From Sipunculus nudus (taxonomy: Eukaryota; Annelida; Sipuncula; Golfingiida; Sipunculidae): 64,000 bases of DNA. Below the pieces are notes generated by a model, which saw nothing but the letters and a program-made list of their open reading frames with translations, was not told the DNA's origin and ran no database searches. Shown piece by piece: positions 2,216-57,700 of the stretch. The stretch's first letter is position 1. The number at the start of each line of letters is the position of its first letter. Location: NCBI GenBank assembly GCA_026874595.1, contig CM049308.1:81514124-81578123 (forward strand). The letters run 5' to 3'. The position numbers were made by a program, and so were the translations under genes.

Positions 2216-3402
2216 AACTAGAATACGGGTAGTCGACAAGCGACTACGTGTATCCGCCAAAATCAGAGAAGGAGGGGTGAAGTGAGGCATGGATTGAGTG
2301 GCAAGGGGATATAGAGTTACATGTGTTAAATATTAGAATGGATCTCTGTCACATAAACATGATTGTAGGTGGCGCCACCTGTTATTTGAACGAGAAACTA
2401 TCCAAGATATATACACATGCAAAATTTCATGTGGAAAAGTCAAACCACTGCAGAGATATGAGTGATTTTATCCCACTGCAGACAAACAGATGGACGCTGT
2501 GCAAAAATGGCTGCAGGTGGCGCCACCATTTTTGTTCATGTTATAAAGCTATCCAAGGGCTACATTTGTGTAAATTTTTTTTCCTGATTGGTCAAACGGT
2601 TCCCGAGATATGAGCTTGGATGTCTGCAGTGTTAACGTGAATGTAGGTGGCGCCACCTGTCATAAAATCAAGAAAGCTATCTAGGATGTATAGGCATGCC
2701 AATTTTAGGTGAATTAGTCAAACCACTGCAGAGATATGAGTGAAATTAACCCCAGGCAGATTAACAAATGGACACTGTGCAAACATGGTTGCAGGTGGCG
2801 CCACCTTTTGTTGTTTATGTTATAAAGCTATCCCAGGGCTACATTTGTGTAAAATTTTTTTCCGGATCGGTCAAACGGTTCCCGAGATATATGGGTTTAT
2901 GTGTGGAGCGTTAACGTGAATGTAGGTGGTGCCACCTGTCATAAAATCAAGAAAGCTATGTAGGATGTATATGCATGCCGATTTTTAGGTGAATTAGTCA
3001 AACCACTGCAGAGATATGAGTGATTTTAACCCCAGGCAGATGAACAAATGGACACTGTGCAAACATGGTTGCAGGTGGCGCCACCTTTTGTTGTGTATGT
3101 TATAAAGCTATCCCAGGGCTACATTTGTGTGAAATTTTTTTCCAGATCGGTCAAACGGTTCCCGAGATATATGGGTTTATGTGTGGAAACAGACACACAA
3201 ACGGACGCTGGGCAGAGACGAAAGGTCAGAGGTCAAGGTCACTTGGTTAGGCACCAGTTCACATGTGACCCGATAATTTGTGTAAGTTTCGGGAAAATCT
3301 GTCCATTAGTCTCAGAGGAGTTCTCCGGAAACGAACGCGGCGGCGGCGGTGGAACCCGGTCAAAAACATAGTATCCGCAAAACTTCGTTTGGCGGATACA
3401 AT
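2216..3402 (+). mobile_element. Palindrome-type tandem-repeat element (copy A), complete
   Basis: Begins AACTAGAATACGGG, then a perfect hairpin at 2229-2247 (GTAGTCG/CGACTAC) and TGTATCCGCC. The core has GGTGGCGCCACC boxes at 2368, 2516, 2646, 2794, 2925 and 3074, spaced alternately 148 and ~130 bp. The 3' part carries a GGTCAAGGTCACTTGG stretch, a (GGC)n run near 3340-3350 and a terminal hairpin at 3371-3399 (GTATCCGC/GCGGATAC), then AAT. The ends match copy B at 55653-57238 (opposite orientation), so the limits are supported by two copies. No transposase is present. The modular tandem core and terminal hairpins recall non-autonomous Helentron-like elements; that assignment is inference. Confidence 0.75.
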
Positions 3403-9593: not shown

Positions 9594-12500
9594 CTGCAAA
9601 TTTAAAAGTTTTTTTTATCTTGAAGAAAAATATTGAAAAATATTCTTATACTCTCTCTATATTATATCTAACTTTGCAAAGCAAACAGTACACAATATGA
9701 AGGTAAATTCTGTATACAAACATTTAATACTAGGGACCCATGGATCTCGACACTCAGCTGAATTTGTCTATAATGATATGTTCAAGAGTTTTTTTTTACA
9801 AAATAGGGGTCCTGTGATCAGTTCGAAGCCAACCAGTCTACCCAAATTGGAGTCATCATCCATAAACTAACTGTGAATGGACTTGCCCTGTGACCTTGAC
9901 CTTAGACCGTATGACCCAAAACGCTTACATTATTGGTGGTCCATATATAAGTCAAGTTTGAAACCAATATGTCAATCCAAACTGGAGTTATATTCTGGAC
10001 CCTAAAATCAATCAAGTTCTTCCCCTATCAGGTCAGCTATATGTGCATGATGGAAGGTTGAGGATGAAATTTTTGGCTTGCAATGCATCCACAATTCTTT
10101 CTAAGTAAGTAAGTCCTGTGACCTTGACCTCTGACATCATGAACCAAAAATCAACAGAGTTCTTACATTATTGGTGGAACTTATAAGATCAAGTTTGAAA
10201 CCAATATGTCAATCAAAACTGGAGTTATCTTCCGGGAACAATAATGTGGAAAGAAGGCCCCTGTGATTTTGACTTTTGACCCCAAAATCCATCAGGTTCT
10301 TTCCCTATCAGGTCAGCAATATGTGCATGATGGAAGGTTGAGGATGAAATTTTTGGCTTAAAATGCATCCACAATCTTTCAAAATAAGTGGATTCTGTGA
10401 CCTTGACCTCTGACCTTATGACCCCAAAATCATTAGAATTCTTGGGTTAGAGGTGGGCCATATATAAGTCAAGTTTGAAATCCATATCTCTGGTCATGTC
10501 TGTCTCAATGTACACCCTGAACCTAAAGCCACATCGGTCAGATTACTCCTTTACTTCCTTGACCTGATTAGTCTCACTTTCAGCTGATTAGCAGATTATG
10601 ACTGAAAAGATTTTAACCAGCAACACATCTCAGTAGTCTGATGGCTTGTGATTAGCCAATATTATTCCTAAGGGTAACTTTGGGTACACATACTTTGAAA
10701 AATCTAATTTTTTTATTTCCTTTTTTTTTTAAATTTAAGTAGAAACAGATATTATAAACCAAAGGTTTATGTAAAATATGAAAACATATTTAAGGTGTGT
10801 TAAATTATTATGTATTTATTAAATCCATTTAACCAATCAAACATGTCTTTAAAAATATTTCATGAATTATAATTTGAATGATTGCAAAACATATTAAAAC
10901 TAGATTAGGTCGGACATTGGTCCTCAGAGGGCCCCGCTTTTCTGCTAGTGCTGGACTAGTTTACATATGGATGAAAAAATTAAGTTAAATTTGAAAAATA
11001 TCACAAACAGAAACAGGTTTTTATCAATATGCATGAGGGAAAAAATCATACTGGATTAAAGAAGATATGTCTGAAATAATGTGTGCAATAGAAAATCACC
11101 AAATGTAGTCTGTTAGCCATATTTGATTTTGAGCAAGTCTGTTATTCAATAGGTCTGGAGCCCTCATAGAGACCAATGATCCCTGTAAATTTGGAAAAGC
11201 TGCAGGAGGTTGTTTTTGTGTTATTGCTCATGAAAGAAAATCAGCCATCTGGCTGTGGAGGCCATATTGGAATTCAGACGTGTCTGTTATTCAATAGGTC
11301 TGGAGCCCTCATAGGTACTAATCATCCCTGTGAATTTGGAGAAGATGCAGTTGGTTGTTGTTGAATTATCGCGTGTGAAAGAAAATCAGGACGGAAGGGT
11401 TGGACTGCGGGCCGGAAACTTGAATAATGCGGGGCGGGACGGGTGCAGGCTGAAAGAAAATTTTGCGGGGCAGGTGCGGGCTGAAAGAATCATAGTAACT
11501 GAGAGGTGGGGCGGGCTAAATTTTTTTCTTTGATTGCGGGGCAGGCTGACAGGGCATGAGTGCACAGAACCTTATACCTATGTTTTAAAGAATACCAATA
11601 GCTTTACTTGCAATTTTTATTATATGGTTTAATTGTATTGTTTATCATCACTATTGCATCATTTGTTATCATAGCAGATGCTTTTGGTGCATTATAAATC
11701 TTGGTAATGGGTTTATACTGACTTAACTAAAGGTATAAAGAATGCACAACTGGATGGCTTATAAATCTAAGGTGCTGCCTGCTACTTATTTAATCCATTT
11801 CTTAAAGAATAAAAATTTCCATATGTTACATGTCAAAATGTCTGACAAAATTAAATTTCATTCTTACATATATTATACTATATTTAAAGTATTTGCTAAT
11901 TAATAAAATGTAATAAAAATACAACATTTAAATGAAGAATTTTTAGGAAAAAGCACATTACCTGGTTCCTCCGAAGAAAAAGACTTTATCTCGTAATATA
12001 CAACAACACTGTCGCCTTCTTGGGCAAGGTGGGACACCAAACATTTTGAGGTGTTTCCATTCATAAGACACTAAAAACAGAAAGCATAGACATTTATGGA
12101 GATTGTGTCAAAGACATTTATGGAGATTTAGTCACTACTGTACTGTGATGGGTAATAATTCATTACATCTTTAAATAAACTTAAGGAGGTTAAGTAATTT
12201 CCTGTGTCTGTTTGTGTCAATTTGTATGTTTGTCTTAGTACTAGATATTTCAGAATTTTAATGAGTGATATAACAAGAGCACCACAACTTGCATAATATG
12301 CCCATCTTATGTCTTGTGACCTCTGACTGCATTAAATATGCATGAATTTTGTCGAGAATTAAGTTCAGGTGAGATACTGAATAGATTAATATTCATACTG
12401 AGTTTCATGAATATCCATAAGAATTTTGTGAAGTAACCTTGGTGGCACCAAATCTGGTGACCTCTGACCTCATCAAATATGCATGAATTTTGCTGGAAAT

Positions 12501-15500
12501 CGAACTTAGGCGAGATCTTATATTGATTATAATGGGACTTAACATGTGGAATATGTTGTGTACTTTCAATGGAGATGGTGATCAATTTAAACTATTACAC
12601 CACAAGACAGGAATACAGTATTTATGTTAATGTTCTGCGTGGTGTATACCTTACCTGGGTTAAACTTGTACATATCACCAAAGTGTTCAAAATATCTGCC
12701 ATTAAAACCACCAAAAATGTACAGCTCTCCTTTGTAAACAACTGAAACAGAAAAGAAAATTACACATAGCTATTGGACTACATATAAATTAATACTACAT
12801 GGATAAAACAGATAATGAAATAATCTAACACTACATTACACTTATTTAAAGAGGGACCATTTGATAATCAGTATTATATACTTAATGTTTTCATGGATCT
12901 TTTAATAAACATATAGCATAAGAGATGAAAGATATTAAATCAAATCAACTATGTTTGAACTTTCAGAGTAGCTAAAATGATGTAAATTATCCAAAAATAC
13001 AGGACTGTGTGACATTTTGGCTGTGGACATTAAGTCATTTTGTATCGGGATAATTCATCCCGGGTTGTATATCCTAAAATGCAGAACTAGAGATTTGACC
13101 AAGGCATATTGTAATGGCACTGATCATATTTTCACTAATAGCTACTGTAAGGGCTGAAATATGTTTGTGACATTGGTACTGCATAATGACATCTTCATGA
13201 TACTTTGTTAATCGTAACATTACAGAAACAAATCAAAGCTTCTCAGGTCCCACACATGATCTGACATGGATTTATGGTAGTTACATTTTTTTGTAACCTC
13301 CGGGTACTTATTGTCATATTTTACTGAATTTAATATGTTCACTAACAATATAAATCTGAAACCCACACTCTTTTTCTTACTTATTTCTTATTACAGTGAT
13401 GTGCACTCACAATAACATATTACATTTTGTACACATAAAGTCATCAATATTTATAACTTAAGGGTAATGTAATATAAAGACAAAACTTACATGCTGAGTG
13501 ACTCCTCCTGCCAACTGGTAGGTCACCTTCAGTAGCTGGAGTATCCCACTTCCTCGTGCGCGTGTTGTATACTTGGATTTTATTGCAGTAAATTTCGTTG
13601 TTGGTGAATACGGGGCCCCCTCGATCGCTACGGCCCCCAAAAACATACATGTTCTCTCCAATCACGGAAGCTGAGTGAAAGTCCCTCCATAGGAGGCCCT
13701 CTCTACCCTGAAACATAACATAAACATACACTCAGTGATAGTCCCTCCATAGTAGGTCCTCTCTACCCTGTTACATCACATAAACATACACTCAGTGAAA
13801 GTCCTTCCATTGTAGGCCCTCTCTGACCTGAAACATCACATAAACATACACTCAGTGATAGTCCCTCCATAGTAGGCCCTCTCTACCCTGTTACATCACA
13901 TAAACATACACTCAGTGAAAGTCCCTTGATAGTAGGTCCTCTCAACCCTGTTACATCACATAATCATACACTCAGTGATAGTCCCTCCATAGTAGGTCCT
14001 CTCTACCCTGTTACATCACATAATCATACACTCAGTGATAGTCCCTCCATAGTAGGTCCTCTCGACCCTGTTACATAACATAAACATACACTCAGTGATA
14101 GTCCCTCCATAGTAGGTCCTCTCTACCCTGTTACATAACATAAACATACACTCAGTGAAAGTCCCTCCATAGTAGGTCCTCTCTACCCTGTTACATCACA
14201 TAATCATACACTCAGTGAAAGTCCTTCCATTGTAGGCCCTCTCTGACCTGAAACATCACATAAACATACACTCAGTGATAGTCCCTCCATAGTCGGCCCT
14301 CTCTACCCTGTTACATCACATAAACATACACTCAGTGAAAGTCCCTCCATAGTAGGTCCTCTCGACCCTGTTACATCACATAATCATACACTCAGTGATA
14401 GTCCCTCCATAGTAGGTCCTCTCTACCCTGTTACATCACATAATCATACACTCAGTGATAGTCCCTCCATAGTAGGTCCTCTCGACCCTGTTACATCACA
14501 TAATCATACACTCAGTGATAGTCCCTCCATAGTAGGTCCTCTCTACCCTGTTCGTCACATAATCATACGGGCACTTTCACACTAAAGGTTGGATATGAAA
14601 AATTGTTAAACAATGGTTCACAGGTAAGTTTTGTGGCTGAAAATATGATACATATAATCATATTTGTAAAGGCCACACCAGCCACTATAAACACAGAAAA
14701 TTTTTAAGTCTAAGCCAATTTTTTAAGAAGTTCTGGCCATTTAAGTGTAATTTTCACCAAATTTTGGAGTCTCACTCACAAAAATGGAAGAATTTAATGT
14801 AAATATGACTGAAATTTGTTTACCAGAACAGAAATATTCTAATCACAGCACATGCTGTAACATGTAAACTACAAGTCCTCAAAGTTTCATGACTTTCATA
14901 GTGGTGGTTTAAATTATCCAATCAATATCCTTCAGTATAATAATTGGTTAAAAATTTTTTCTGGGACCTGTCCTCTCCAGTACATTGCATCCTCACAAGA
15001 AATGTAATTCTCATGTTGCAAAACAAAATCCTGCTTTAAACAGCCAGTATTATATCTAATCATGTTTTGGTAACTATGGGCTGGGTATGCGTGTTCTGAC
15101 CCGAATGATTTGGCACTTGTTTTACCTGGTATATGCCTGTTAAAAAAATTGTCCTCTCCAGTACATACAGATAAAATTAACTTTAATGTAGAAAATGAAA
15201 GCCTATTTTAGTTTATATGTAACAGGTAGCTAGGAAGATAAATTCCCTGGTGTTTGCATTGCAACCCATCTAAAATTTTGTGGCCAGTTTAGCAATGAGA
15301 GTATCTGTTAAAATGTCCTCTCCAGTACAATTATTTTTAACATGAGGCAGGCTAGAGGAATACTTCTCCAAGTAAGCTTAATATTTACTTAAAGTTTGTC
15401 CTAGTGACAAATATAAATAGACTGACTGGTTTAGGGAAATATTTTGGCTCATTATATAAATTAATTAGCATGTAACTCCATTCATTGTCAGTGCTCATGT

Positions 15501-16637
15501 TTAGATTGATGAATCTTCATTGATGAATTCATGATAAAGCCTTTCTTGTACATGTTCCTTCTTTGTACAGAAGTGAGAGCAGACAAAAAGCATACCTGCA
15601 ATAACTGCATGTAAATTGTGACAGTAGCAGACTTTAATTTTAGGTTACTTAAATGTACTGGAGAGGACATTTTTTTAACACGGGATAAAAGTCTCAAAAG
15701 TACAACCCTCCAGTCTTTCAGATTTGCACAGAAGTTCTTGAGGCTTTCAATCACTTTGGATACCTAACCTGCTTAATTTTAATTTTAATAAATACCATGC
15801 AGTTTACTACAAAGACCCCTTCATCTATTACTTTGGTAATTATAAGAAATGTGTAATTGTATCTGTTTTTAACCAGAACCACATACATGTTAAGATTCTT
15901 TACCAAATTAGACCCGGTAGAAATAGTCAATCAGCCCAAATTTTCATTTTTACCAAAATCTAACATTTCATTATCTGGATCATTTACTCTCTTCATGTCT
16001 CATATTTTATGTAACTTTGCCATATTGATGATTGCTGACGAATCAGCCCAAATTGTTTTAGCCAAAGATAATTTATATGAAAATACCAGTGCTTTCTGTT
16101 CCCTTGCCATCACACCAGCCATGAATACATTACTTCATGAGAGAAACCAATCAAATTTGCCAATACTTTTGCCTCAAGAGAAAGTCAACAACTTGTGAAA
16201 CCAAATGGTTTGGTAAAACAACTTTTGAAACTATAGTCTCCCGATTTGCTGGTACACATTTTATATGACACAGTTATCAGTGTTGGGCCAGGGGTGGTGA
16301 GGGTGGAGGCATCATGTGAACTTTGGTCTTTGAAAACGTGCTTGTCTTTCCCATCCATTTTACCAATCTCACAGCAAAGTCTATGAAAACAATGATATCA
16401 ACATTGTCTTCTTGTAAAAGCTTAATTTTCTGGTTCCACCTTATCTAAGTCTCAGAAAAGTCGTATTTTTATGTTTAAAATTCAAATTCAATGGTAATAT
16501 CCTCACAAGTAAAAAGCCAAAAGCAACTGAAATGTCCATTTCCACAACTGTTGTGTCACAATGTAAAGTACAACTAGCAGGACCCATATTGTAGTTATCA
16601 TATAATACAAAAATGTATGTCCCAAATTTTGAATAAA

Positions 16638-16702
<65 letters not shown>

Positions 16703-19700
16703 ATATTTTCCCCAGGTCTACAATAAACATTTTGTTTATGTTACATTCAGGTGAGCTATGTTGTCTGTGAACCAATTGTTTAATGTATGCTGTAAAATAA
16801 GTTGAGAGATGTGAATATTTAAAGTAAATGTGTTGGAAATAAAACATGAGTGCAAAAAAACACATAATATTTGCATTATGGATTGTGAACAAAACTGCTT
16901 CTGAACAAAATTCTGTGAAATATTCATTTTCAAGATGACCGTTTCTCCAAATTTTTGTTCAAAATATGTTGTCTGGAGTATAATTTATTTCAACAAAACA
17001 AAAGGTACAAGCCATCCAATATTTATTATCTCGCTTTATGTGTCATTTAATATCATGGAGTCATAATTGACTTACATTATACTTAATAACTGAAACTTGG
17101 GTATGTCTATTTTGTGCTCCTTTAACCATAAGGTCCAAATAGTTGCAGATAAACTTGCCTCTGGAAAATGAGGTGGACTTTGGTTCATTTTATGTTCAAT
17201 AGGACCATGAACAATACAAGAGAGAGAGGGAACAAAAACATTCCTATGAATTCTTCCACAGTGCATGTTAAAATAATGTCCTCTCCAGTACAAATGTCAG
17301 TAAAACCCGTTATCATAAAAATCAAGTGACCACAGACTAAGGCATCAACATGTTTCCTGATTTCTTGAACTCTGTACAGCTGAACAACTTCTCTCACCAT
17401 TTCTGTTGCTGATTGAGCAGAGCAGAGTCAGAATAAAGACTGAGAGCATACTTCCTTTCATCAAAATTAAAATGCATTGTTAAATTTTTTATAAAAATAT
17501 GAAAATTTCATAAAAAAACAAATGTGATTGCAGATTTTTTTACCATGCACTTAGGGCATGATCAAATACATAAGATAAAGACATTAGGACAGACCAATGA
17601 GCAAAAATTTAAATTATGTAGAGCTGTGAAGAGAAAAAGATTATTGTAAAAACATGGGAAGTTTGAATTACTGAATTCAAGGTAACTTTTATTAGTTCAC
17701 AGGTAAAATGGTATACTAAACAGTTTCCTTTAGCTAAGATATATACCTTTTGAGGGGTTAACTTAATTTTGCTCTGTTAGGTATTCAGTTTTTACTCCCC
17801 AGTGAGACTAATCACTCAACCTTTTGTGTAAAAGTGCCCATACACTCAGTGATAGTCCCTCCATAGTAGGTCCTCTCTACCCTGTTACATCACATAATCA
17901 TACACTCAGTGATAGTCCCTCCATAGTAGGTCCTCTCTACCCTGTTACATCACATAAACATACACTCAGTGAAAGTCCCTCAATAGTAGGTCCTGTCTAC
18001 CCTGTAACATCACATATAAACATACATTCAGTGAAAGGCCCTCCATAGTAGGCCCTCTCTACCCTGTAACATTACATAAACATACACTCAGTAAAAGTCC
18101 CTCCATAGTAGGTACTCTCTACCCTGGAACATCACATAACCATACACTCAGTGAAAGTCCCGCCATAGTAGGCCCTCTCTGCCCTGTAACATCACATAAA
18201 CATACACTCAGTGAAAGTCCCTCCATAGTAGACCCTCTCTACCCTGTAACTTCACATAAACATACACTCAGTGAAAGTCCCGCCATAGTAGGCCCTCTCT
18301 GCCCTGTAACATCACATAAACATACATTCAGTGAAAGTCCCTCAATAGTAGGCCCTCTCTACCCTGTTACATCACATAATCATACACTCAGTGAAAGTCC
18401 CTCCATAGTAGGCCCTCTCTACCCTGAAACATCACATCAACATACACTCAGTGAAAGTCCCTCCATAGTAGGCCCTCTCTACCCTGAAACATCACATCAA
18501 CATACATTCAGTGATAGTCCCTCCATAGTAGGCCCTCTCTGCCCTGTAACATCACATAAACATACACTCAGTGAAAGTCCCTCCATAGTAGGCCCTCTCT
18601 ACCCTGTAACATCTCATAAACATACACTCAGTGAAAGTACCTCCATAGTAGGCCCTCTCTACCCTGAAACATCACATCAACATACACTCAGTGAAAGTCC
18701 CTCCATAGTAGGCCCTCTCTGCCCGAAAAAAATAACAACATACACTCAGTGAAAGTCCCTCCATAGTAGGCCCTCTCTACCCTGTAACATCACATAATCA
18801 TACACTTGGATTATTTCTTAGCTCCTGCAATGGAAATAATTAATTATCAAATTATGTCCACACTTCTTCTGCAGACTATATGTAATACAAGCCACTGTCT
18901 TTACCTTAAAACAAATCAGTAAATAAATTTTAATGATCAGCATTTCCATGGTCTCACATTGCCTACAATATTTTTAATCATATTTTTGTGTAACAGAGGT
19001 ATGGCAAAACCCTGAGATAAAACTCTTTTTCATTCATTCTAAAACATAAGATTCATAAGACAGAACTTGTCCTTACCTCTATATGAAGTGATGACCATGT
19101 CATTGTCGTGAAATCAAAACGCAAAATATCATTGCAGAATTTATCAATCTGAAACAAATAAGGAATTAAAAGTAAAACACAATATTCAGACAATGTGAAA
19201 TGACTTGCCATGGTGAAATCCATTCATTTTTATATTCAATGACTAAGATAAATCTTGAATGTTATAGAAATACTATTTATGCAAAATCAAAACATGGGAA
19301 TTAATCATAATTAACATAGACATACTAGATGCCATTAAATTCTTGTGGATACACTATAACAAATGTTCTCAAAATACCCCAATTTTGTATATTCTACACG
19401 GACAAACTGATTCAATCTTCATAACTCTTCCGTAACAGGGAAACATATGGGCATAAACTGACAATTTATAAAACATGACAGAAACTTGTTTATCAAAGAT
19501 TCTTAAGATCATGAATCTTAGCTGAGTTGAACTTTACTTCCATATTAGCTGTCTAATTCTACTTTTGCACCTCTATACCAGGCCACAGTGCATAGGTCTC
19601 TGTGGGCCAACACTCAATGGCTTTTAATCTCTGCGACTTACTGAAAATATTTCAAAGGCTGTTCCTTAAATCCTCATGATCCCTTATGGATAACAAAATA

Positions 19701-22700
19701 TATTTACAAATGATGAGTAAGTTTGAAATAATGGTGTTGGCTTAAAAGAACCTTTATTGTATGATACTGTTAGTAATTTTTTACAATTCTAACACGATCC
19801 ATTTCATTAATGCTTGGTTGCTTTGGCTTAATAATGTATATGACACCTAGGGATCTGGCATAGGGCCAAGAATATTCAACCAATGAGAGGAGTTCTTCTG
19901 AATCATTTTCAACTCTCTTATTATCCAAAGAACGTTCTGCATCATTGTGCTCAAACCAAACCTGGAAATGTCATCAAAATATAAGCTGCCCTAATTTTGT
20001 CAAAGGTTTCATGCACTGTCAAATTGTAACAAAAGTTCTGACTCTTAAATGATGGCAAGGTGCCAAAAATACTACGGAATAAAGATATTATTAGGGGTTC
20101 AAAATTTTGTGGTTTTTATGCAAAACACATATCATGGGGTTTTGAATTTGTCGTAAGAGGATGAAATGATAGTAATTAATGGTTTATTAATCAAAACAAA
20201 AATGCAATACAGATGGGTGCATAATACAACCATGGCTCAACTGAGGTGCTTACCACATGGTGTACCAGGATAGCTGTAATCAGGTCAGTGTTAAACAAAC
20301 AAGCCTCCCCTGCCGTGAGCCTGTTGGTCATATTTAGCAAAGATGGCCAATCAAAGCAGTGGGAAAGTGGAATGTGAGAGAACAAATGTAGAAGGACCAA
20401 TTTGCAAGGAGTTTATACAGTGGTTGGCTTCATATTCTCGATATTAAATTTTGTGATTTTTAATTTTTCATTGTTTCATGAGGGTCTCTTTTTCATTATG
20501 TCACTATACAATAATCTTCAGAGATTTTTCATTTTATATGAATTAATTTATATTTAACAATATGCATGCAAAATCATAACAACTGGACTGGGATCCCTGT
20601 TAAATCTATTATTCATTACTCCAGATAATCTGAAAAAGCTTATATTATTTATACTAGCAATCTTTGATTTACAGGTATCATACATGATCCATTATTTTTT
20701 CAATCATTTTCATCTTTTACCTTTTGACTTGCTTTTGAAAATGAGGTAACCGGTTTCTTAATCACAGGGTTCTATTTTCGTGATTATTTTCCTCTTTCCA
20801 ATACCTCAAATTTGACACCCTTGTGAACAATCAGACAACCACAGTATATTGGGTCATGTATGATGTAGCTGTTCTTCTTTTACTTACATCTTCCTCATAT
20901 CCCCCAAATATATACATGATGTTGTTGATGACACAGGCTGAGTGGCCATCTCTCCCTCCAGGCGTTGGGCCATGTGTGACTGGGTGGGACCACTGTTCTG
21001 TATCTACAAAATTTGTAAACTAAAGTAAACAAAATATTATTGATTAACCACAGTTTTTACCTCAAGTTCTGTTGTTCAAATCACATACATTCTGTTACAA
21101 GTCTGAAGCAAAGATGGTCTATCAGTATCAGCTAAATGACATTTTCTCCTATTTACACCATGAAGTCGCAAATCTGATAAAATTATTCCCATTAATTATC
21201 ATGTTACTGCCACGCACAAGGACATAAAGATGTGTTGTGAACAGGTGAATAGCGTCGACATTTGATTCATCTCCACATGCAAAGCTTTTTTAATCATAGC
21301 AAAAATTATGGTTCATACGGACCGCTGGCAACAGCTAATATAGGCAGAGTATGTAGGTGTACAAATTCATATATGTATTATAAACAAGGGACCCATGGGT
21401 CACGGCGCTCAGCTGAAGTTTGAAATTTTTGCAAATGCAAAATATGCAAAATATTCTATTGTAATGTTTTTCATTTATATAAGCATATGAGAAGCTAAGA
21501 GGAAAGGGGCCCTCCTACTTGGTTATAGTAAAGTTCTAAATGTATAATTGCAAACTAATACTCTGACAAGACTGTCATGAAGAAAAACAGTAACAGTTTT
21601 GAGACACTGTGATGCATATGAAAAATTTACAGATGGACAGGCAAGTGGACAGAATGGACTAATATTTTTATTTCACTTTCAAGAGAATAATGCATTTAAG
21701 TTTATATATAAGCCTATTTTTTTAGCATATCAACTTTTTCCATTAATAGTTTTTATCTGATTAGTTTTTTTTATTTACAAGTTTTATAAATTTGCAATAC
21801 AAAAACTGAAAATATAAGTTAAAATATTAGAATTCTAAGTTGCAATCATTATATATCCAGAGTGTAGCTCATATTGGGTCATATTATGTATACACATATA
21901 TTTTATTATTTTTAAATCACAAATGTTTAAACTGAATCTAAAATAAAATAATGCCACAACATGGCATCTACAAGATTATTCCTTGAATCACTATTAAAAA
22001 GTTTTGCACATTGGAGTTTTCAGTACATGCTTAATTTTATTCACTGAAATGAAATAAAAGATTCATTAAATTTGATAAAATAAAATATCTTTTCAAATAA
22101 AGTATACACACTGTTGGTTGAATGAGGGAATATCATTGTGCTAATTACTATCTCAGCTATAATTTATTACTGGAATTAATTGTCAATTTCACACCCGGTG
22201 AAGTTTTTACTCTCCTAAAGTAAGGAATTACTTATCTGATGAACATCCACACTTTCATACCAATATTAATACCAAGTTTTTCCTTAATATCTAGAAGGAA
22301 CGAAGTCCTAATGACCCAATTTTCGGTAAGGTAGGAGATTTTGGGGACATCTTATGGTATGCAAAGTTTTGGATCTGTAGGTCTAACGGTTTTAAAACGT
22401 GCCCTGTTAAAGGACAGACGGACGACGGACAAAGGACCACGACTATAGCTCAGATGACTTACAGTCAGCTGAGCTAAAAATGTTTCAGGAAATTTAAAGG
22501 ATACAAACTAATGAAGGATATGAACTGATGTAGACATTACGGTAGCTGTTGAATCATTATTTTATACTGGTATGAAGTGCTGGAACTGTCAATTAGTATG
22601 TGATGACCTAAGCATATTATAACATTCACAAACAGAAGTATAGCTGAGCTTTGACATGATAATGTATATGCGAGTCTCTAATTTATCCAAATCATGGTAT

Positions 22701-23861
22701 TTAAGTGCTGCCACCTGTCAGCCATCTTGTAAACACCAAACTGAGAAAATGTTGTTTTGAATAAAATTATGTTGTGGTACAACAGCTAATTGATCACTAA
22801 CTAAACTTAAAGAAGACTTGTTTTATTGTGTAATAACCTCTAAACAGGATTAAGAGAGGTGTCAGAGGCAGTTGCATGTTACGCAAACTGAAAGACGAAT
22901 GACAAATGTCATTATGAAAAAAGGTCATAATCATTTTTATTACCTCTGTGCTGCATGCAGCTAATCTCATCATTGTACTGTATTGTTTAAATTCAACATA
23001 AACTCTGACATTCTGAGCTATCAGAGTGACAGGTATAAACACACAGACAGGAAGGCAGACACAGGTAGAAACATAACCTCCATAAAAAAAGTACCATACC
23101 TGTATTAAAACACCAGATTTGATTGCATGCTCCTTCTCTGTCATTCCGTCCCCCCCAGATGTAAGCACAGCTCTGGTACTCGACAGCGGAGTGTCCGTAT
23201 CGTTGGTACGGTGTGACGTCATACTGCGGGTCCTTCTTCTTTGGTACTGGTAGGGCCTTCCATTGGTAGGTAACTGCAATGAGGTAATCTTAATACAGTA
23301 GAGCCCCATTTATACAAACAATATTTACCTGAAAACTGTTTAATCAAAATTGGAAACTGAGACCAAAAAATTGGATCAATTATCTGAAATTCAAACAAAT
23401 TACAAAAATTGTGACTAGTTCTATACAAATATACCGAGATTACAGGAATATGTAATGCAGATTAATTTTCCAGGGCCAATTAGCAATAGTTTCAATGTAT
23501 TTTAAATAATAAATTGATTGTATTGATGGAAAACATAACAAAAGTTTTGTTGAAAAGAATTCTGGACTGTCGGTATCTGAAAATGTCCAGTATTTCGCTA
23601 TTAGTATGGAATAATTATAATATATTCACATGACATTTATTAAACTGATGGAGAACCTGTGTGTGAGTGATGGACAAAAAAACTGTATCAAAGACATAGA
23701 CACAAACCTGTGTTTAAAATGTGGACGTCCATAGGTCTTGTTGTTTCATAATCTTCCCCTGTGCAGTAGCCACCAAAACTGTATATACGATTACGGTCAG
23801 GCACCACGATGGCCGCATGGTTGACCCTGCGTGGCCCTCCTTCTAAATGCACTGTCCACAT
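9514..23861 (-). CDS. KLHDC3: KLHDC3, kelch-domain C-degron receptor (8 exons found, 3' end missing)
   Basis: Recognised by near-identity of the N-terminus to vertebrate KLHDC3 (WTVHLEGGPRRVNHAA) and collinearity over 336 codons. CDS is complement(join(9514..9593, 11962..12070, 12655..12741, 13491..13707, 19077..19148, 20888..21003, 23100..23273, 23708..23861)); all introns are GT-AG and all phases agree. Six kelch blades are marked by YSFGGYC, YIWGGRN, MYIFGGYE, MYVFGGRS, LYIFGGFN and FFFGGTS. Family knowledge: KLHDC3 binds cullin-2/elongin B/C through a C-terminal BC-box and recruits proteins ending in glycine-type C-degrons for ubiquitination. That C-terminal part (about 45 residues in human) was not found, so this model is incomplete. 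The ATG at 23861 has an in-frame stop ten codons upstream. It lacks two residues after the Met relative to human (MLRWTV). Introns are 0.5-5.4 kb and repeat-filled; intron 4 holds the splice-site-derived minisatellite. Confidence 0.95.
9730..10560. repeat. CTTGACCT-type tandem repeat, ~140/280-bp modules
   Basis: Starts with AGGGACCCATGG, the same opening as the element at 21386. CTGTGACCTTGACCT-like boxes occur near 9888, 10112, 10255 (degenerate) and 10395. A 38-bp segment beginning ATGTGCATGATGGAAGG recurs at about 10040 and 10320 (280 bp apart), and ACCAATATGTCAAT recurs at about 9962 and 10200. It lies between the last recognised KLHDC3 exons, in intron 7. Confidence 0.7.
10895..11575. 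repeat. AACTAGATTAGGTCGG-type repeat with 145-bp duplication and G-rich 3' part
   Basis: Opens AACTAGATTAGGTCGGACA followed by a GGGCCCC stretch and a second CTAGT. GTCTGTTATTCAATAGGTCT occurs at 11137 and 11282, 145 bp apart, each followed by GGAGCCCTCATA. From 11395 to 11570 the sequence becomes strongly G-rich (GCGGGGCGGG, GCGGGGCAGG), unusual here. KLHDC3 intron 7. Confidence 0.6.
11962..12070 (-). CDS. KLHDC3: KLHDC3 exon 7
   Basis: 109 nt, acceptor TTTTTAG|TGTCTT, donor ACCAG|GTAATG. Encodes YEWKHL, PCPRRRQCCCI and DKVFFFGGTS (sixth blade). CPRRRQCCCI is a KLHDC3 signature. Confidence 0.94.
12270..12590. repeat. GTGACCTCTGAC-type repeat, two 141-bp modules
   Basis: Opens AACAAGAGCACCACAACTTG. 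GTGACCTCTGAC begins at 12316 and 12457 (141 bp apart), each followed by ATCAAATATGCATGAATTTT or a near copy. KLHDC3 intron 6. Confidence 0.65.
12655..12741 (-). CDS. KLHDC3: KLHDC3 exon 6
   Basis: 87 nt, acceptor TTTCAG|TTGTTT, donor CCCAG|GTAAGG. Encodes GELYIFGGFNGRYFEHFGDM then YKFNP (fifth blade), collinear with human GELYIFGGYNARLNRHFHDL. Confidence 0.93.
13491..13707 (-). CDS. KLHDC3: KLHDC3 exon 5 (parent of the intronic minisatellite)
   Basis: 217 nt, acceptor TTTCAG|GGTAGAG, donor GCAT|GTAAGT. Encodes WRDFHSASVIGENMYVFGGR, NNEIYCNKIQVYNTRTRKW and GRRSHSA (fourth blade to start of fifth). The first ~36 nt of this exon plus its acceptor are the source of the ~60-bp tandem array beginning immediately at 13708. 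Confidence 0.95.
13708..14568 (-). repeat. Exon-derived 60-bp minisatellite, downstream block
   Basis: About 14 head-to-tail copies of a 60-bp unit. On the minus strand each unit reads as a 3' splice site (GTAACAG or GTTTCAG) followed by GGTAGAGAGGGCCTAC and GGAGGGACTTTCACT, which is the acceptor and first ~36 nt of KLHDC3 exon 5. The array abuts the real exon at 13707/13708. Copies differ by a few substitutions, for example ATAATCATAC/ATAAACATAC and GTGATAG/GTGAAAG. Confidence 0.95.
14569..17839. mobile_element. 3.27-kb terminal-inverted-repeat element inserted in the minisatellite
   Basis: Ends are inverted repeats: GGGCACTTTCACACTAAAGG on the left, and GGGCACTTTTACACAAAAGG when the right end is read inward. 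It interrupts one repeat unit and is flanked by ATAC on both sides (14565-14568 and 17840-17843), a 4-bp target duplication. It contains five copies of TGTCCTCTCCAGTACA and an (AT)n at 16640-16700. The longest frame (113 codons, 15857-16198, plus) has no recognisable domain, so it looks non-autonomous. A 4-bp duplication is compatible with Sola1- or Chapaev-type elements, but the superfamily is not established. Confidence 0.85.
16639..16700. repeat. (AT)n microsatellite
   Basis: Uninterrupted AT dinucleotides of about 60 bp inside the 3.27-kb element. Confidence 0.95.
17840..18808 (-). repeat. Exon-derived 60-bp minisatellite, upstream block
   Basis: About 16 more copies of the same 60-bp splice-acceptor/exon-5 unit, continuing the array split by the insertion. 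Near 18721-18735 one unit is damaged (CCCGAAAAAAATAAC). Confidence 0.95.
18809..20887. other. KLHDC3 intron 4 end, exon 4 and intron 3: no further features
   Basis: Apart from exon 4 (19077-19148) this is AT-rich unique-looking sequence without recognisable coding or repeat structure. Confidence 0.5.
19077..19148 (-). CDS. KLHDC3: KLHDC3 exon 4
   Basis: 72 nt (24 codons), acceptor TTTCAG|ATTGAT, donor GAG|GTAAGG. Encodes the strand after the third Gly-Gly motif, including CNDILRFDFTTMTW, which aligns with human FSNDIHKLDTSTMTW. The 5.4-kb intron that follows contains the minisatellite. Confidence 0.92.
20888..21003 (-). CDS. KLHDC3: KLHDC3 exon 3
   Basis: 116 nt, acceptor TTTGTAG|ATACAG, donor GAT|GTAAGTA. 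Encodes TPGGRDGHSACV and IMYIFGGYEED (third blade). Ends in phase 0. Confidence 0.93.
21386..22480 (+). mobile_element. 1.1-kb AGGGACCCATGG...TGAGCTAAAAA element
   Basis: Opens AAGGGACCCATGGG followed by GCGCTCAGCTGA. Ends in a run of GACGGAC-type repeats (about 22412-22432) and a terminal hairpin at 22446-22476 (TAGCTCAG/CTGAGCTA), then AAAAA. I recall this pairing of ends as common in mollusc genomes. No reading frame of note. It lies in KLHDC3 intron 2. Confidence 0.65.
23100..23273 (-). CDS. KLHDC3: KLHDC3 exon 2
   Basis: 174 nt, acceptor TTGCAG|TTACC, donor ACAG|GTATGG, phase 1 to phase 1. Encodes YQWKALPVP, the conserved RYGHSAV blade opening and AYIWGGRNDREGACN (second blade). A 170-residue open frame over the same bases is an unrelated frame. 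Confidence 0.93.
23708..23861 (-). CDS. KLHDC3: KLHDC3 exon 1 (coding part)
   Basis: 154 nt, start codon at 23861, donor CACAG|GTTTGT. Encodes the closing strand and first blade: WTVHLEGGPRRVNHAA, then YSFGGYCTGEDYETTRPMDV, all highly conserved. Ends in phase 1. The 5' UTR may continue upstream; an in-frame TAG lies at 23889-23891. Confidence 0.93.
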
Positions 23862-48700: not shown

Positions 48701-51700
48701 TTGTTTACAGGCAAATGAGGTAAGCTATGATTAAAAAAAAATTAATGACATATTTTCCTCTTTCTGTCACAGAGTCAGTAAGTTTTTCCTATTTTAGCGA
48801 ACCTTTGGGCTTATGCGATGGTGCAGTGTTGTCCATTGTGCGTCATCTATATGTTAACCATAGCTATCTCAAAAATGGCCGGAGCTAGCATCACCAAATT
48901 TTTTGCAAATAATCAGTCATCCAAAAAACTACATCAGATTTTTTTATTTTTTTCTAACTGCATTTTCTTAGATTTTATAGGGAAAAAGCTAAAAAGCTTT
49001 AAAAATCTTCTCCTCAGAAACTGTCCAGCCAAATTGTCCAATATGTCAGAGAAATGATCCCTGGAACAATCTCTCTCAAGTTTGTTTGAATGTTTCCAGT
49101 TTGGAGATTTTTGGCTGAGTTACAAGAGGTTGAACTTTGTCATCTGTCCAAAAAAGCATATTAAAATTTAAATCTCAGAAACGGCTGGAACTATCATCAC
49201 CAAATTTGGCGCCACCTGCTTCAGCCTTTTTTGTACGGGGTCATCAGTGCCTGTATTAAACACTGAGGGCTACAAAAAACTTCTTCTCTGAAACCATATG
49301 GCCAAAATGTTTAATATGGCATAGAAATGATCCTAGGGTAGTGCTTTCTGAAGTTTGTTCAAATGGTCTCTGTTCAGTGACTTTTGGCTAAGTTATGGGA
49401 AGCTGAATTTAGTCATATGCCGTAACAGCCCATTTGAGCTCAGTGACTACAAAGATCTTCTTCTCAGAAACCACTGGGTCAATTTCTTAAATCTCACACA
49501 TTAATTATTCTCAGATGTTGATAATTCAAGTTTGTTCAAATGGTTTTTGGTTCAGTGCTTTTTGGCTGAGTTACAGGAAGCTGAACTTAGCCAGTTTGCT
49601 GTATCTTCCTATATGAGTTATAAACCTGCAACACTTTTTTCGACTGATGCCACTGAAGCCAGTTTGTTAAATATTTTACAAGAATAATCCCTACAATAAT
49701 TCTTATAATAATTGTCATAAATGGTTCCTCATGAATGATTTTTGGCTGAATTATGGAGATTGAATTGAGTAATTTTACCATATATGTTAGCTGTGTGATG
49801 CTGTTACATCTAGCCTGGCACCAGTTTATCAGCATCTATTACATCATGCCACTAGACATTTAGATTTCAGGTTATCTTTGGTTAATATTGACAAGAAAGT
49901 TTTTTTTAAAAGCTTTTAAAAAATATTAGATTTATGATTTAAGTTATTCATCAAACCAGGCTATGTTACAATTATGGATATATAGCTCTCTGTGGCTATA
50001 TAAAGACAACTCTACATGGATTATAAATTATTGGTATCCCTACTCCACTTAATTCAAGAATTTGCCATCAGTGAGATATATCTGTATTTTAATTTTGCAT
50101 TCAGTATGCATCTGTAATAATTTTACATATATTCCTGATTTCTTTTTTTATTAAAAGTCAGCTGATAAGCATTTTGTATTGGAAAAATAAATTTCAAAGT
50201 TTTTTCAAGTAGGGGCCGCTTTTGTGTACAGATGGCAGCACTTGGTTAACCATTGGCAGATTGCCAGTGCCTTGATGTTGGCCGTTAGCCAAGATGATGT
50301 CAGCTCAGTTCACTCAGTGCAGTAGCTGCATTCTATTTATAGCTTTGGCAGACTGCCAACTGTGTCAGATTATGCAACAGGTCAAGAGACTTAGTGCAGC
50401 TAAGTACAGGTCAAAAGTTCACTCAGTCTAGCCAGGTGCAGGTCACGAGTTCACTCAGTGAAGTAGCTTGAAGCAGCAATTTGTCACAGTTCACTCATGG
50501 GCAACTGCCTTACTCACCTAAGCCTCGTCAGCCCAGTGCATCAAACTCAAGGGAAGGTTGATAAGGGATAAAATTACTTATATCTCGGCAGTGGTTTGAC
50601 ATATCTGCTTAAAATTATGCAGGTTTATACATCTTGGATAGCTTTCTGGATTTTGTGGCAGGTGGTGCCACCTACATTTATGTATACGCTGCAGACATTC
50701 AGGCCTATATCTCAGGACTGGTTTGACATATCCTCCTGAAATTTTGCATGTGTATAGATCTAACATAGCTCTTGATCATAGGCAAAACTGGGGGCGCCAC
50801 CTGCAACCATTTTTTCACAGTGTCCATTTGTTCATCTACCTTGGGATAAAATCACTAAAATCTCGGCAGTGGTTTGACTTATCAGCTTAAAATTTTGCAT
50901 GTTTATACATCTTGGATAGCTTTCTTCATTTTGTTGCAGGTGGCACCACCTACATTTATGTGTTCGCTGCAGACATTCAGGCTTATATCTCAGGACTGGT
51001 TTGACATATCCCCCTGAAATTTTGCATGTGTATAGATCTTACATAGCTCTTTATCATACACAAATTTTGTGGCGCCACCTGCCACCATTTTTGCACAGCG
51101 TCCTTCTGTTTGTCTGTTGTGGGATAAAATCACTCGTATATAAACAAGTAGTGGTTTGACTTATCTGCCAAAAATTGTGCATATGTATACAACTTGGACA
51201 GTTTTCTGGATTTTGTGGTAGGTGGCACAACCTACGAACACATTTCAGCTGCAGACATCCAGGCTATTATGCAACACACCTCACTCTATTTCCCCTTGCA
51301 ACTCAATCCATGCCTCACTTCACCCGCCCCACTCTGATTTTGGCAGATACACGTAGTCCCTTTGTGGACTACCTGTATTCTAGTTTTTGTATTGTGTGCA
51401 CCCATGCAAAAATTTCAGCAGTGATGTTTGTTTAATTGTTTCTTGTTCTAAGTGTTTAGTACTTGTATTGTTCATATACATGTTACACATGTTCTTGAAA
51501 AGAAATGGTCCAGCATTAAAGCATTATACCTGGTGTAATCTCATCAGGTTTGCATTAGGCCTGTAGGCCTTGTTTTACTTGCCAAAAAAATAATTGTGAA
51601 AAAACAGGTGGACAGGGGTGATGGAGTGTGTAGTAACTGAGTCATGGAGGACCGAATTCCTGCTCCTTTTGGTGTATTTCAGGGGTAGATTTCAAAACAG

Positions 51701-54700: not shown

Positions 54701-57700
54701 AGTTTAACTATGTTTTATTGATAAACAACTAAATGCATTAAAGAAATATGCTCAACAAATTAAAAATTTAGGATCACTTTATTCAAACTAAACAAATTAA
54801 ACCATGATATAAAAAAAGCAACAAATGAATACAACACTACTACAGGATTTCCTTATGAACACAGTTCTCTGACTCTCCTACCTCCATTACTGCCAATTTA
54901 TAAAAGAATGCTCTTACTTTAAGCTTATAACCAGATACTTTTATTGTTTTTTTGATCACAAGGGATTAAATTTTGTGATAAATGCAAAAGAAGTTTTCCC
55001 GAATTTAAAATTTTGTTCCATTTACACTGATGAATAGTCCTTTATACTGTAGTTTCACTAACATATCATGTATGTTTTGTATGCCTGTAGCTTCAAATGG
55101 CAAAAAGCAATGGATTGATTTTATAAATTATTACAGATCTTTTATGCTAGCCATAAACTAAAAATATGATAATATCCTTTACATTATCTGATAATGAACA
55201 AGAATTTCCACTGTTTGTTTATTCCCTTAGCTAGGTCATCCCTTGTCAAATTTTAAGATTTTGTGCACATACTTATCTTCTCTATAATGATGGATATACT
55301 CTGTTAATTGTATGATGAGATTGTGAAAATGGAATCCTCATGAAACACTATAATAAGTGTAAAACTGAAAATGTGAAAATAGATTACAATGAATATGTTG
55401 CAAACCACAGAATATTCATAATTACTGTTGGGCTGTGTTAAAACCTGAAGGCCTGAGAAACCTACATGTCATGTTCAGGGGTCCTGACTGCATCACTCAG
55501 TAAAAAGTTTGACTCATGAACAGTCTTCAGGGCAAGGGCTTTGATTGCATTTTCCTAGTCATGTATGAAAGTTGACATGAACATCTACTAGGACACAGCA
55601 GTAGGACTTATGACTATTGGGTCTTATGACCCCATCACCCTGATAAATTGTAATTGTATCCGCCAAAACAGAGTTTTGCGGATACTATGTTTTCAGCTGG
55701 CCGCCGCCGCCGCCGCCGCGTAGGTGTCCGGAGAACTCCTCCGTAACCGCTGGGCGGAATTTTCCGAAACCCGGGATTATGTTCGGGTCACATGTGAACT
55801 GCTGCGCCCCGATTTTGTTTTGACCTCTGACCTTTCCTTTGCGCTCTGCGTCCGTTTGTGCGTCTGTTTCCACACATAAACCCACATATCTCGGGAACTG
55901 TTTGACCGATCAGGAAAATTTTTTTGCACAAATGTAGCCCTTGGAGAGCTTTATAACATACACCAAAAATGGTGGCGCCACCTGCAACCATGTTTGCACA
56001 GTGTCCATCTGTTCGTCTGCCTTGGGTTAAAATCACTCATATCTCTGCAGTGACTTGACTAATTCACCTGAAATTGGGCATGCGTAAACATCCTGGATAG
56101 CTTTTCTGATTTTATGACAGGTGGCGCCACCTACATTCACGTTTACGCTGCAGACATCCAAGCTCATATCTCGGGAACCGTTTGACCGATCAGGAAAATT
56201 CTTTTGCACAAATGTAGCCCTTGGAGAGCTTTATAACATACACCAAAAAAGGTGGCGCCACCTGCAACCATGTTTGCACAGTGTCCATTTGTTCGTCTGC
56301 CTTGGGTTAAAATCACTCATATCTCTGCAGTGACTTGACTAATTCACCTGAAATTGGGCATGCGTATACATCCTGGATAGCTTTTCTGATTTTATGACAG
56401 GTGGCGCCACCTACATTCACGTTTACGCTGCAGACATCAAAAGTCATATCTCGGGAACCGTTTGACCGATCAGGAAAATTCTTTTGCACAAATGTAGCCC
56501 TTGGAGAGCTTTATAACATACACCAAAAATGGTGGCGCTACCTGCAACCATGTTTGCACAGTGTCCATCTGTTTGTCTGCCTTGGGTTAAAATCACTCAT
56601 ATCTCTGCAGTGACTTGACTAATTCACCTGAAATTTAGCATGCGTTTACATCCTGGATAGCTTTTCTGATTTTATGACAGGTTGCGCCACCTACATTCAC
56701 GTTTACGCTGCAGACATCCAAGCTCATATCTCAGGAACCGTTTGACCGATCAGGAAAATTTTTTTGCACAAATGTAGCCCTTGGAGAGCTTTATAACATA
56801 CACCGAAAATGGTGGCACCACCTGCAACCATGTTTGCACAGTGTCCATCTGTTCGTCTGCCTTGGGTTAAAATCACTCATATTTCTGCAGTGGTTTGACT
56901 AATTCACCTGAAATTCGGCATGCTTATACATCCTGGATAGCTTTTCTGATTTTATGACAGGTGGCGCCACCTACAATCAAGTTTACGCTGCAGACATCCA
57001 AGCTCATATCTAGGGAACCGTTTGACCGATTGGGCCAAAATTTTGCATGAGTATAAATCTCACATAGCTCTTTATCATACGCAAAACTGGTGGCGCCACC
57101 TGCAGCCATGTTTGCACAGCTCCCATCTGTTTGTCTGCCATGGGATAAAATATCCATGCTAATATGCAACACTTCACCCGTTCCACTCTGATTTAGGCGG
57201 ATACAAGTAGTCGCTTGTCGACTACCCGTATTCTAGTTAGCTTGTCTAATCAGGCATGGCCTCCCCTCTGATAGTGATACCGGGCCTGCCTTACAAGAGG
57301 CATACTGGAGGCTCTATTACATCATTCCAGGTAGCAGGGCACTCATCAGGAAACCCATAGGGGCCTGATAATGACATTACCTTGGCCAATGAAACTATGT
57401 GCCACACAAACATGGTTTTATGCTCCAGACACCTATACAGGCTCTGTGAAGACTGCATGGTGCCAGCCAACAGGAAATCATTACTAATACTTGAAAGCTT
57501 CCAGAAGCCCAGCAAAGCCTTGTGACTGCATCACCCCAGCCTGTTTGGTGCTTTTATAGATCTTTAAGTAAAAAATTTAAACAAATATAGGTTTTGGGCA
57601 CATTTGGTGCATTTGGGGCAGTTTTAACCAGGTTATAACCTACGGTTAAAACCTTCATGCCTAAAACTTGCCAACCCTGCACGAAACAGTTTGTTCTAAA

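Follow-up and report, generated by a model that had tools for sequence, protein, structure and literature searches.

How does a minisatellite come to be built from a gene's own splice site, and what becomes of the real site when some 30 copies of it stand in the same intron? This question is raised by the gene for KLHDC3, presumably a ubiquitin-ligase receptor, on the minus strand of the DNA analysed here, a stretch of 64,000 nucleotides that we call the window. Six of its coding exons can be joined into a 273-residue open frame; later exons were left out of this model. Residues 2-273 match PDB entry 9d1i ('Kelch domain-containing protein 3', E 2.4e-107 in phmmer), which we take to be the human KLHDC3 protein. 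With exons numbered from the one that carries the ATG, the repeats lie at intron 4 and exon 5 of KLHDC3, which is where an earlier note on this DNA had placed them. The features discussed below are collected in Table 1.

Table 1. Coordinates of the array, the transposon and the KLHDC3 exons, numbered from the first base of the window.
Feature	Position	Strand	Comment
KLHDC3 coding exons joined	23708-23861, 23100-23273, 20888-21003, 19077-19148, 13491-13707, 12655-12741	-	
KLHDC3 coding exon 4	19077..19148	-	donor GAG/GTAAGG
Rest of intron 4 outside array and transposon	18807..19076	-	270 bp
Exon-distal block	17840..18806	-	16 units and 8 bases of the transposon-cut unit
DNA transposon, 3271 bp	14569..17839		inverted ends, target duplication, inserted in a unit
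Exon-proximal block	13734..14568	-	14 further units, the last one (u14514) cut by the transposon
Terminal unit u13674	13674..13733	-	spans the real intron-exon border (13707/13708)
AG of the putative true 3' splice site (TTTCAG/GGTAGA)	13708..13709	-	predicted acceptor of exon 5
KLHDC3 coding exon 5	13491..13707	-	phase 0 from exon 4; PDB KLHDC3 aligns across the junction

TRF reports a period-60 array in two parts, 13674-14568 (14.9 copies) and 17839-18806 (16.1 copies). A scan without gaps, in which 36/60 was the lowest match accepted, recovers 31 units of 60 bp, the real exon border included, that match the consensus at 37-59 of 60 positions; the best match in three shuffled windows was 32/60, and nothing on the opposite strand reached that value. 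The proposal of a 60-bp minisatellite of about 30 copies in KLHDC3 intron 4 is therefore well founded. The units are far from uniform, with 27 different sequences among the 31. In minus-strand orientation the consensus begins with 26 intronic nt that close with CAG; its remaining 34 nt are a copy of the first part of exon 5.

The boundaries of the array needed more revision. The earlier note had it merely touching the exon at 13708, with an exon-derived part of about 36 nt. The array in fact starts at 13674 and so reaches 34 nt into the exon; these opening bases of exon 5 (13674-13707) form the exonic half of the terminal unit. An exon-derived part is thus present, if slightly shorter than proposed, and the suggestion that the terminal unit is the true splice site probably stands. 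The description of one continuous array over 13708-18808 does not, as it is broken by the transposon at 14569-17839. The note mentions neither this transposon nor the in-frame stops of the upstream units nor the amphioxus arrays described below. Intron 4 measures 5369 bp, made up of 861 and 967 bp of array (1828 bp in total), the transposon (3271 bp) and a remainder of 270 bp. Provided that nothing else changed, the intron would have measured about 300 bp before the duplication.

The similarity of the units to exon 5 is not in doubt. Outside the terminal unit, all 30 exon-derived parts agree with exon 5 at 29-33 of 34 positions (mean 31.2); among 2000 shuffled versions of one unit, the highest score was 22/34. 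Chance similarity is thereby ruled out, and the match claimed in the earlier note lies well outside what shuffled sequence gives. A 180-bp query of three units was also searched against the genome (1.43 Gb, 153 contigs), in a search that scores the best candidates only and so gives a lower bound; among the matches listed, 15 of 15 fall in this array. The unit is not, on these matches, abundant elsewhere without similarity to the exon, and a dispersed or genome-wide satellite DNA occupying many loci was rejected as an explanation. Exon 5 itself has one match in the genome at 100% and seven other protein matches at no more than 53% identity; this search revealed no second, array-free copy of KLHDC3 that could represent the ancestral state.

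In which direction was the sequence copied? The unit contains the codons for WRDFH, a stretch common to PDB KLHDC3, and therefore at least that part went from exon to array. The opposite order would make the array older than the present exon start, with array sequence entering the exon by gene conversion or by a shift of the acceptor. The start of exon 5 (13690-13707) does hold one codon more than PDB KLHDC3 (GREGLLW versus GSPARW), as this order might produce. However, the half of the unit that holds WRDFH must then still be exon-derived, and among the matches listed the unit is seen at no other locus, so we regard an array-first origin as very improbable. The extra codon may instead mean that the exon 5 border was itself altered through exchange with the array, as judged from these alignments.

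The edges of the array point to an origin from the exon border in a single step. At both ends the array stops at a limit of one and the same 60-bp segment (26 nt of intron and 34 nt of exon). On the exon side GCTG is followed by AGTGAAAG; on the intron side, where the exon-distal block closes at the intronic end of the founder segment, CATACACT is followed by TGG. Inner unit junctions read CATACACT-C-AGTGAAAG or near variants of this. The simplest origin is therefore one tandem duplication across the acceptor, followed by repeated expansion; a shared CT could be microhomology. At one exon site all 30 other units carry A where exon 5 has C, a synonymous difference that would suit a single founder. 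Local duplication across an exon border, as the earlier note had it, is hence supported, although its phrase 'satellite birth' is too strong for a minisatellite at a single locus.

The insert that divides the array is a terminal-inverted-repeat DNA transposon. Its ends are inverted (GGGCACTTT.../...AAAGTGCCC) and agree at 21 of the 23 outermost positions, as counted from the alignment; it is flanked by a 4-bp target duplication, ATAC, at 14565-14568 and 17840-17843. It is also present in multiple copies. With its first 332 bp as the query, the best 40 of 91 candidates in the genome are 96-100% identical, the element's own copy included. Seven other copies were fetched, six of them with a readable far end. 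Three of these have perfect 4-bp duplications, one has a duplication matching at 3/4 positions and two have none; the two without have identical flanks. On these sequences the element looks recently active. Among the minus-strand frames listed, none within it exceeds 106 aa. The element also holds five exact copies of TGTCCTCTCCAGTAC, four on one strand and one on the other.

Growth of the array has left a trace in the exon-proximal block. Compared with itself at a shift of seven units, the block is identical at 391 of 400 positions (97.8%), whereas eight other shifts give 91.5-93.6%, so that a 420-bp block was duplicated. The ungapped comparison of the whole block gives 393/415, a lower value that is due to a deletion in the cut unit u14514. 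A repeat of 97.8% over 400 compared bases is also what one might see if a short, real duplication had been inflated or rearranged by the assembler. Against such an error stand the distinctness of the units (27 different of 31) and the transposon seated inside a unit with its 4-bp target duplication; it strikes us as scarcely credible.

The relationships among the units are harder to read. The terminal unit lies at a mean distance of 0.093 from the distal units and 0.110 from the proximal ones, and the spread within the blocks is 0.098 (distal) and 0.074 (proximal). It is slightly nearer to the distal units, which suggests that the distal block retains an older type of unit; the unit tree, with one of 24 inner branches starred and little resolved, is too weak to serve as proof. 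Even with an exon site that sets it apart from 30/30 others, the terminal unit appears not to lie clearly outside the array's own spread, its distance to the distal units being no greater than the spread among them.

What do the copied splice signals imply for the gene? A CAG is kept at the acceptor in 29 of the 30 upstream units, and in 30/31 with the terminal unit, the exception being u18690; TTTCAG, as in the true site, occurs in 5/30 upstream units. If exon 4 is joined in turn to every one of the 30 upstream acceptor places, an in-frame stop always follows within 12 codons: residue 183 is the last one before it in 29 joins and residue 173 in the other. For the 29, this stop is a TGA after CAC or TAC, at the duplication junction. 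The terminal unit is the only one of the 31 whose exon part continues into an open frame. With some 30 upstream acceptor copies that lead into stops, correct splicing would have to skip about 30 decoys. Codon positions 1, 2 and 3 in the exon part of these 30 units carry 7, 9 and 3 variant alleles respectively, and there is thus no sign that upstream units are read as protein. Coding or exonised upstream units were judged unlikely, given the stops in 30/30 and the lack of a codon-position signal.

These same features invite the idea that the array is a working control of KLHDC3. About 30 decoys would compete with the real acceptor, stop-bearing transcripts would be destroyed and copy number would set output. 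The array would then be a heritable, copy-number-variable splicing brake, its decoys diverting transcripts into decay and its expansion or contraction tuning KLHDC3 output. The kept CAG and TTTCAG and the premature stop in every upstream unit are as this idea would have them. The junctions might contribute further signals: CTGA is present in all 30, with the next AG some 24 nt further on by a count made by eye, and 26/30 read CACTGAGTGTATG, which contains GTATG. We take the CTGA to be a candidate branch point and the GTATG a candidate donor. Furthermore, diversity appears somewhat lower in the exon-derived part than in the intron-derived part (0.083 over 34 columns versus 0.110 over 26 columns), which pure neutrality does not predict. 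However, homogenisation alone would preserve such features, and no codon-position signal is seen. Related arrays in amphioxus, to which we return below, are reported apparently to leave splicing undisturbed (PMC3087553, PMC3902484). In our view such a control function is improbable.

The best explanation overall, and very probably the right one, is a single duplication across the border, later growth, a split by the transposon, and persistence as a neutral or mildly harmful by-product. We infer the following order of events. A 60-bp segment over the border of KLHDC3 intron 4 and exon 5 would have been duplicated once in tandem. Unequal exchange or replication slippage, one duplication of a seven-unit block included, would then have brought the array to 31 units, and a DNA transposon would subsequently have split it. 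The array would have been a neutral or mildly harmful by-product throughout. The terminal unit would be kept by selection, as it is the real exon start, and the remaining units would be decoy acceptors that normal splicing has to avoid. This proposed origin is read from the anatomy of the array itself. Speaking against it are the additional codon at the border, the poorly supported unit tree, the lack of a clear separation of the terminal unit from the array's own spread and the somewhat lower diversity of the exon-derived part.

Are arrays of this kind common at exon borders in this genome? We scanned 58 exon loci, KLHDC3 (L009) and 57 others (L010-L016, L037-L066 and L074-L093). In a coarse scan of TRF coordinates against the borders of the matched stretches, no border-spanning array was found at any of the 57. 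The sample is small. Because match ends only approximate exon ends, and long single frames hold many of L037-L066, the number of effective borders is below 57. At one locus, L074 (G000:C9:48357759-48359443), an array of 15 copies of a 40-bp unit, at 90-696, follows the donor of a kinase exon; it begins about 8 bp inside the intron (by eye) and so adjoins the border without spanning it. At L043 and L085 an array comes within 60 bp of the match and stops short of it (L085 being inspected by eye). A self-match scan was positive in 6/58 loci: L009, L074 and L085, which hold arrays, and L011, L075 and L092. The self-matches of L011 step by 2 bp, like a simple repeat.

Other tandem repeats were seen along the way. 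Two copies of a 24-bp unit occupy 12088-12134, immediately upstream of a KLHDC3 exon whose start is near 12073; this duplication is smaller, intronic and close to a splice site. The window also contains tandem arrays of 278-280 bp units at 2356-3187, 50565-51235 and 55885-57151. In the printed units the motif GGTGGCGCCACCT occurs in the arrays at 2356 and 55885, with a near-match in the array at 50565. Arrays of 279 and 287 bp units are found in the kinase loci L060 and L055.

What gives the locus its value is that the minisatellite has stayed joined to its parent sequence and that the founder segment is still legible. The real splice site is the last of 31 closely similar acceptors, and the gene thus offers a natural test of how an acceptor is chosen among copies. 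The array and the transposon also illustrate how an intron of probably about 300 bp can grow approximately eighteen-fold, since together they make up 5099 of the 5369 bp of intron 4. In an organism other than a lancelet, the array would extend splice-site minisatellites beyond the group from which the consulted papers describe them.

Several known systems resemble parts of this picture. The Helentrons of the Pacific oyster carry satellite-like arrays (PMC7492417). These and the KLHDC3 array are alike in being short tandem arrays outside the classical satellites, but those of the oyster are dispersed, whereas the KLHDC3 array lies at one locus, among the matches listed, and derives from an exon border. 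Intron gain by tandem duplication of AG/GT segments (Rogers 1989, Zhuo 2007, Gao and Lynch 2009, as cited in PMC3087553) shares with our case an internal tandem duplication that copies splice signals. It differs in its outcome, as no new intron is evident here and the copies lie inside an existing one.

The closest parallel is found in the 'mirages' of amphioxus, minisatellite-like tandem duplications over an intron-exon border that have been described in Adh3, BflGb6, BflGb9, PGBD5 and TnC (PMC3087553, PMC3902484). In the open-licence literature that we searched, mostly titles and the openings of abstracts, minisatellites spanning such a border appear in amphioxus only (PMC3087553, PMC3902484), and a further case may exist. 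The name comes from Adh3, for which somatic instability was reported (PMC3087553); the original amphioxus Adh paper is Canestro 2002, as cited in PMC3087553 and PMC3902484. In PGBD5, repeats of 60 and 108 bp lie over splice sites (PMC3902484). In BflGb6 the repeat takes in the 3' end of an intron and the 5' part of exon 2, with six and three units in two haplotypes and 81-100% identity between units (PMC3087553). The KLHDC3 array likewise repeats an intron 3' end and an exon 5' part in tandem, and its terminal unit (13674-13733) spans the border. Many but not all BflGb6 units keep their splice signals (PMC3087553), as do 30 of our 31 with CAG, and it was pointed out that mirage copies could act as cryptic sites (PMC3087553). 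Mirages are further characterised by copy-number instability and by homogenisation that leaves out the boundary unit; on the latter point, the KLHDC3 terminal unit differs from 30/30 others at one exon site, but is no further from the distal units than these are from one another.

The KLHDC3 array has 31 units against six and three in BflGb6, and its unit of 60 bp compares with 150-160 bp in BflGb6 and 10-72 bp in Adh3 (PMC3087553). It lies in a different gene and, unlike BflGb6, is split by a transposon. The genome that holds it measures 1.43 Gb and amphioxus genomes are much smaller, which speaks against an amphioxus source on size. Each of its upstream units brings an in-frame stop, a feature that the consulted parts of the amphioxus papers do not report for mirages. 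The KLHDC3 array is nonetheless of the same kind as the amphioxus mirages, with more units than BflGb6.
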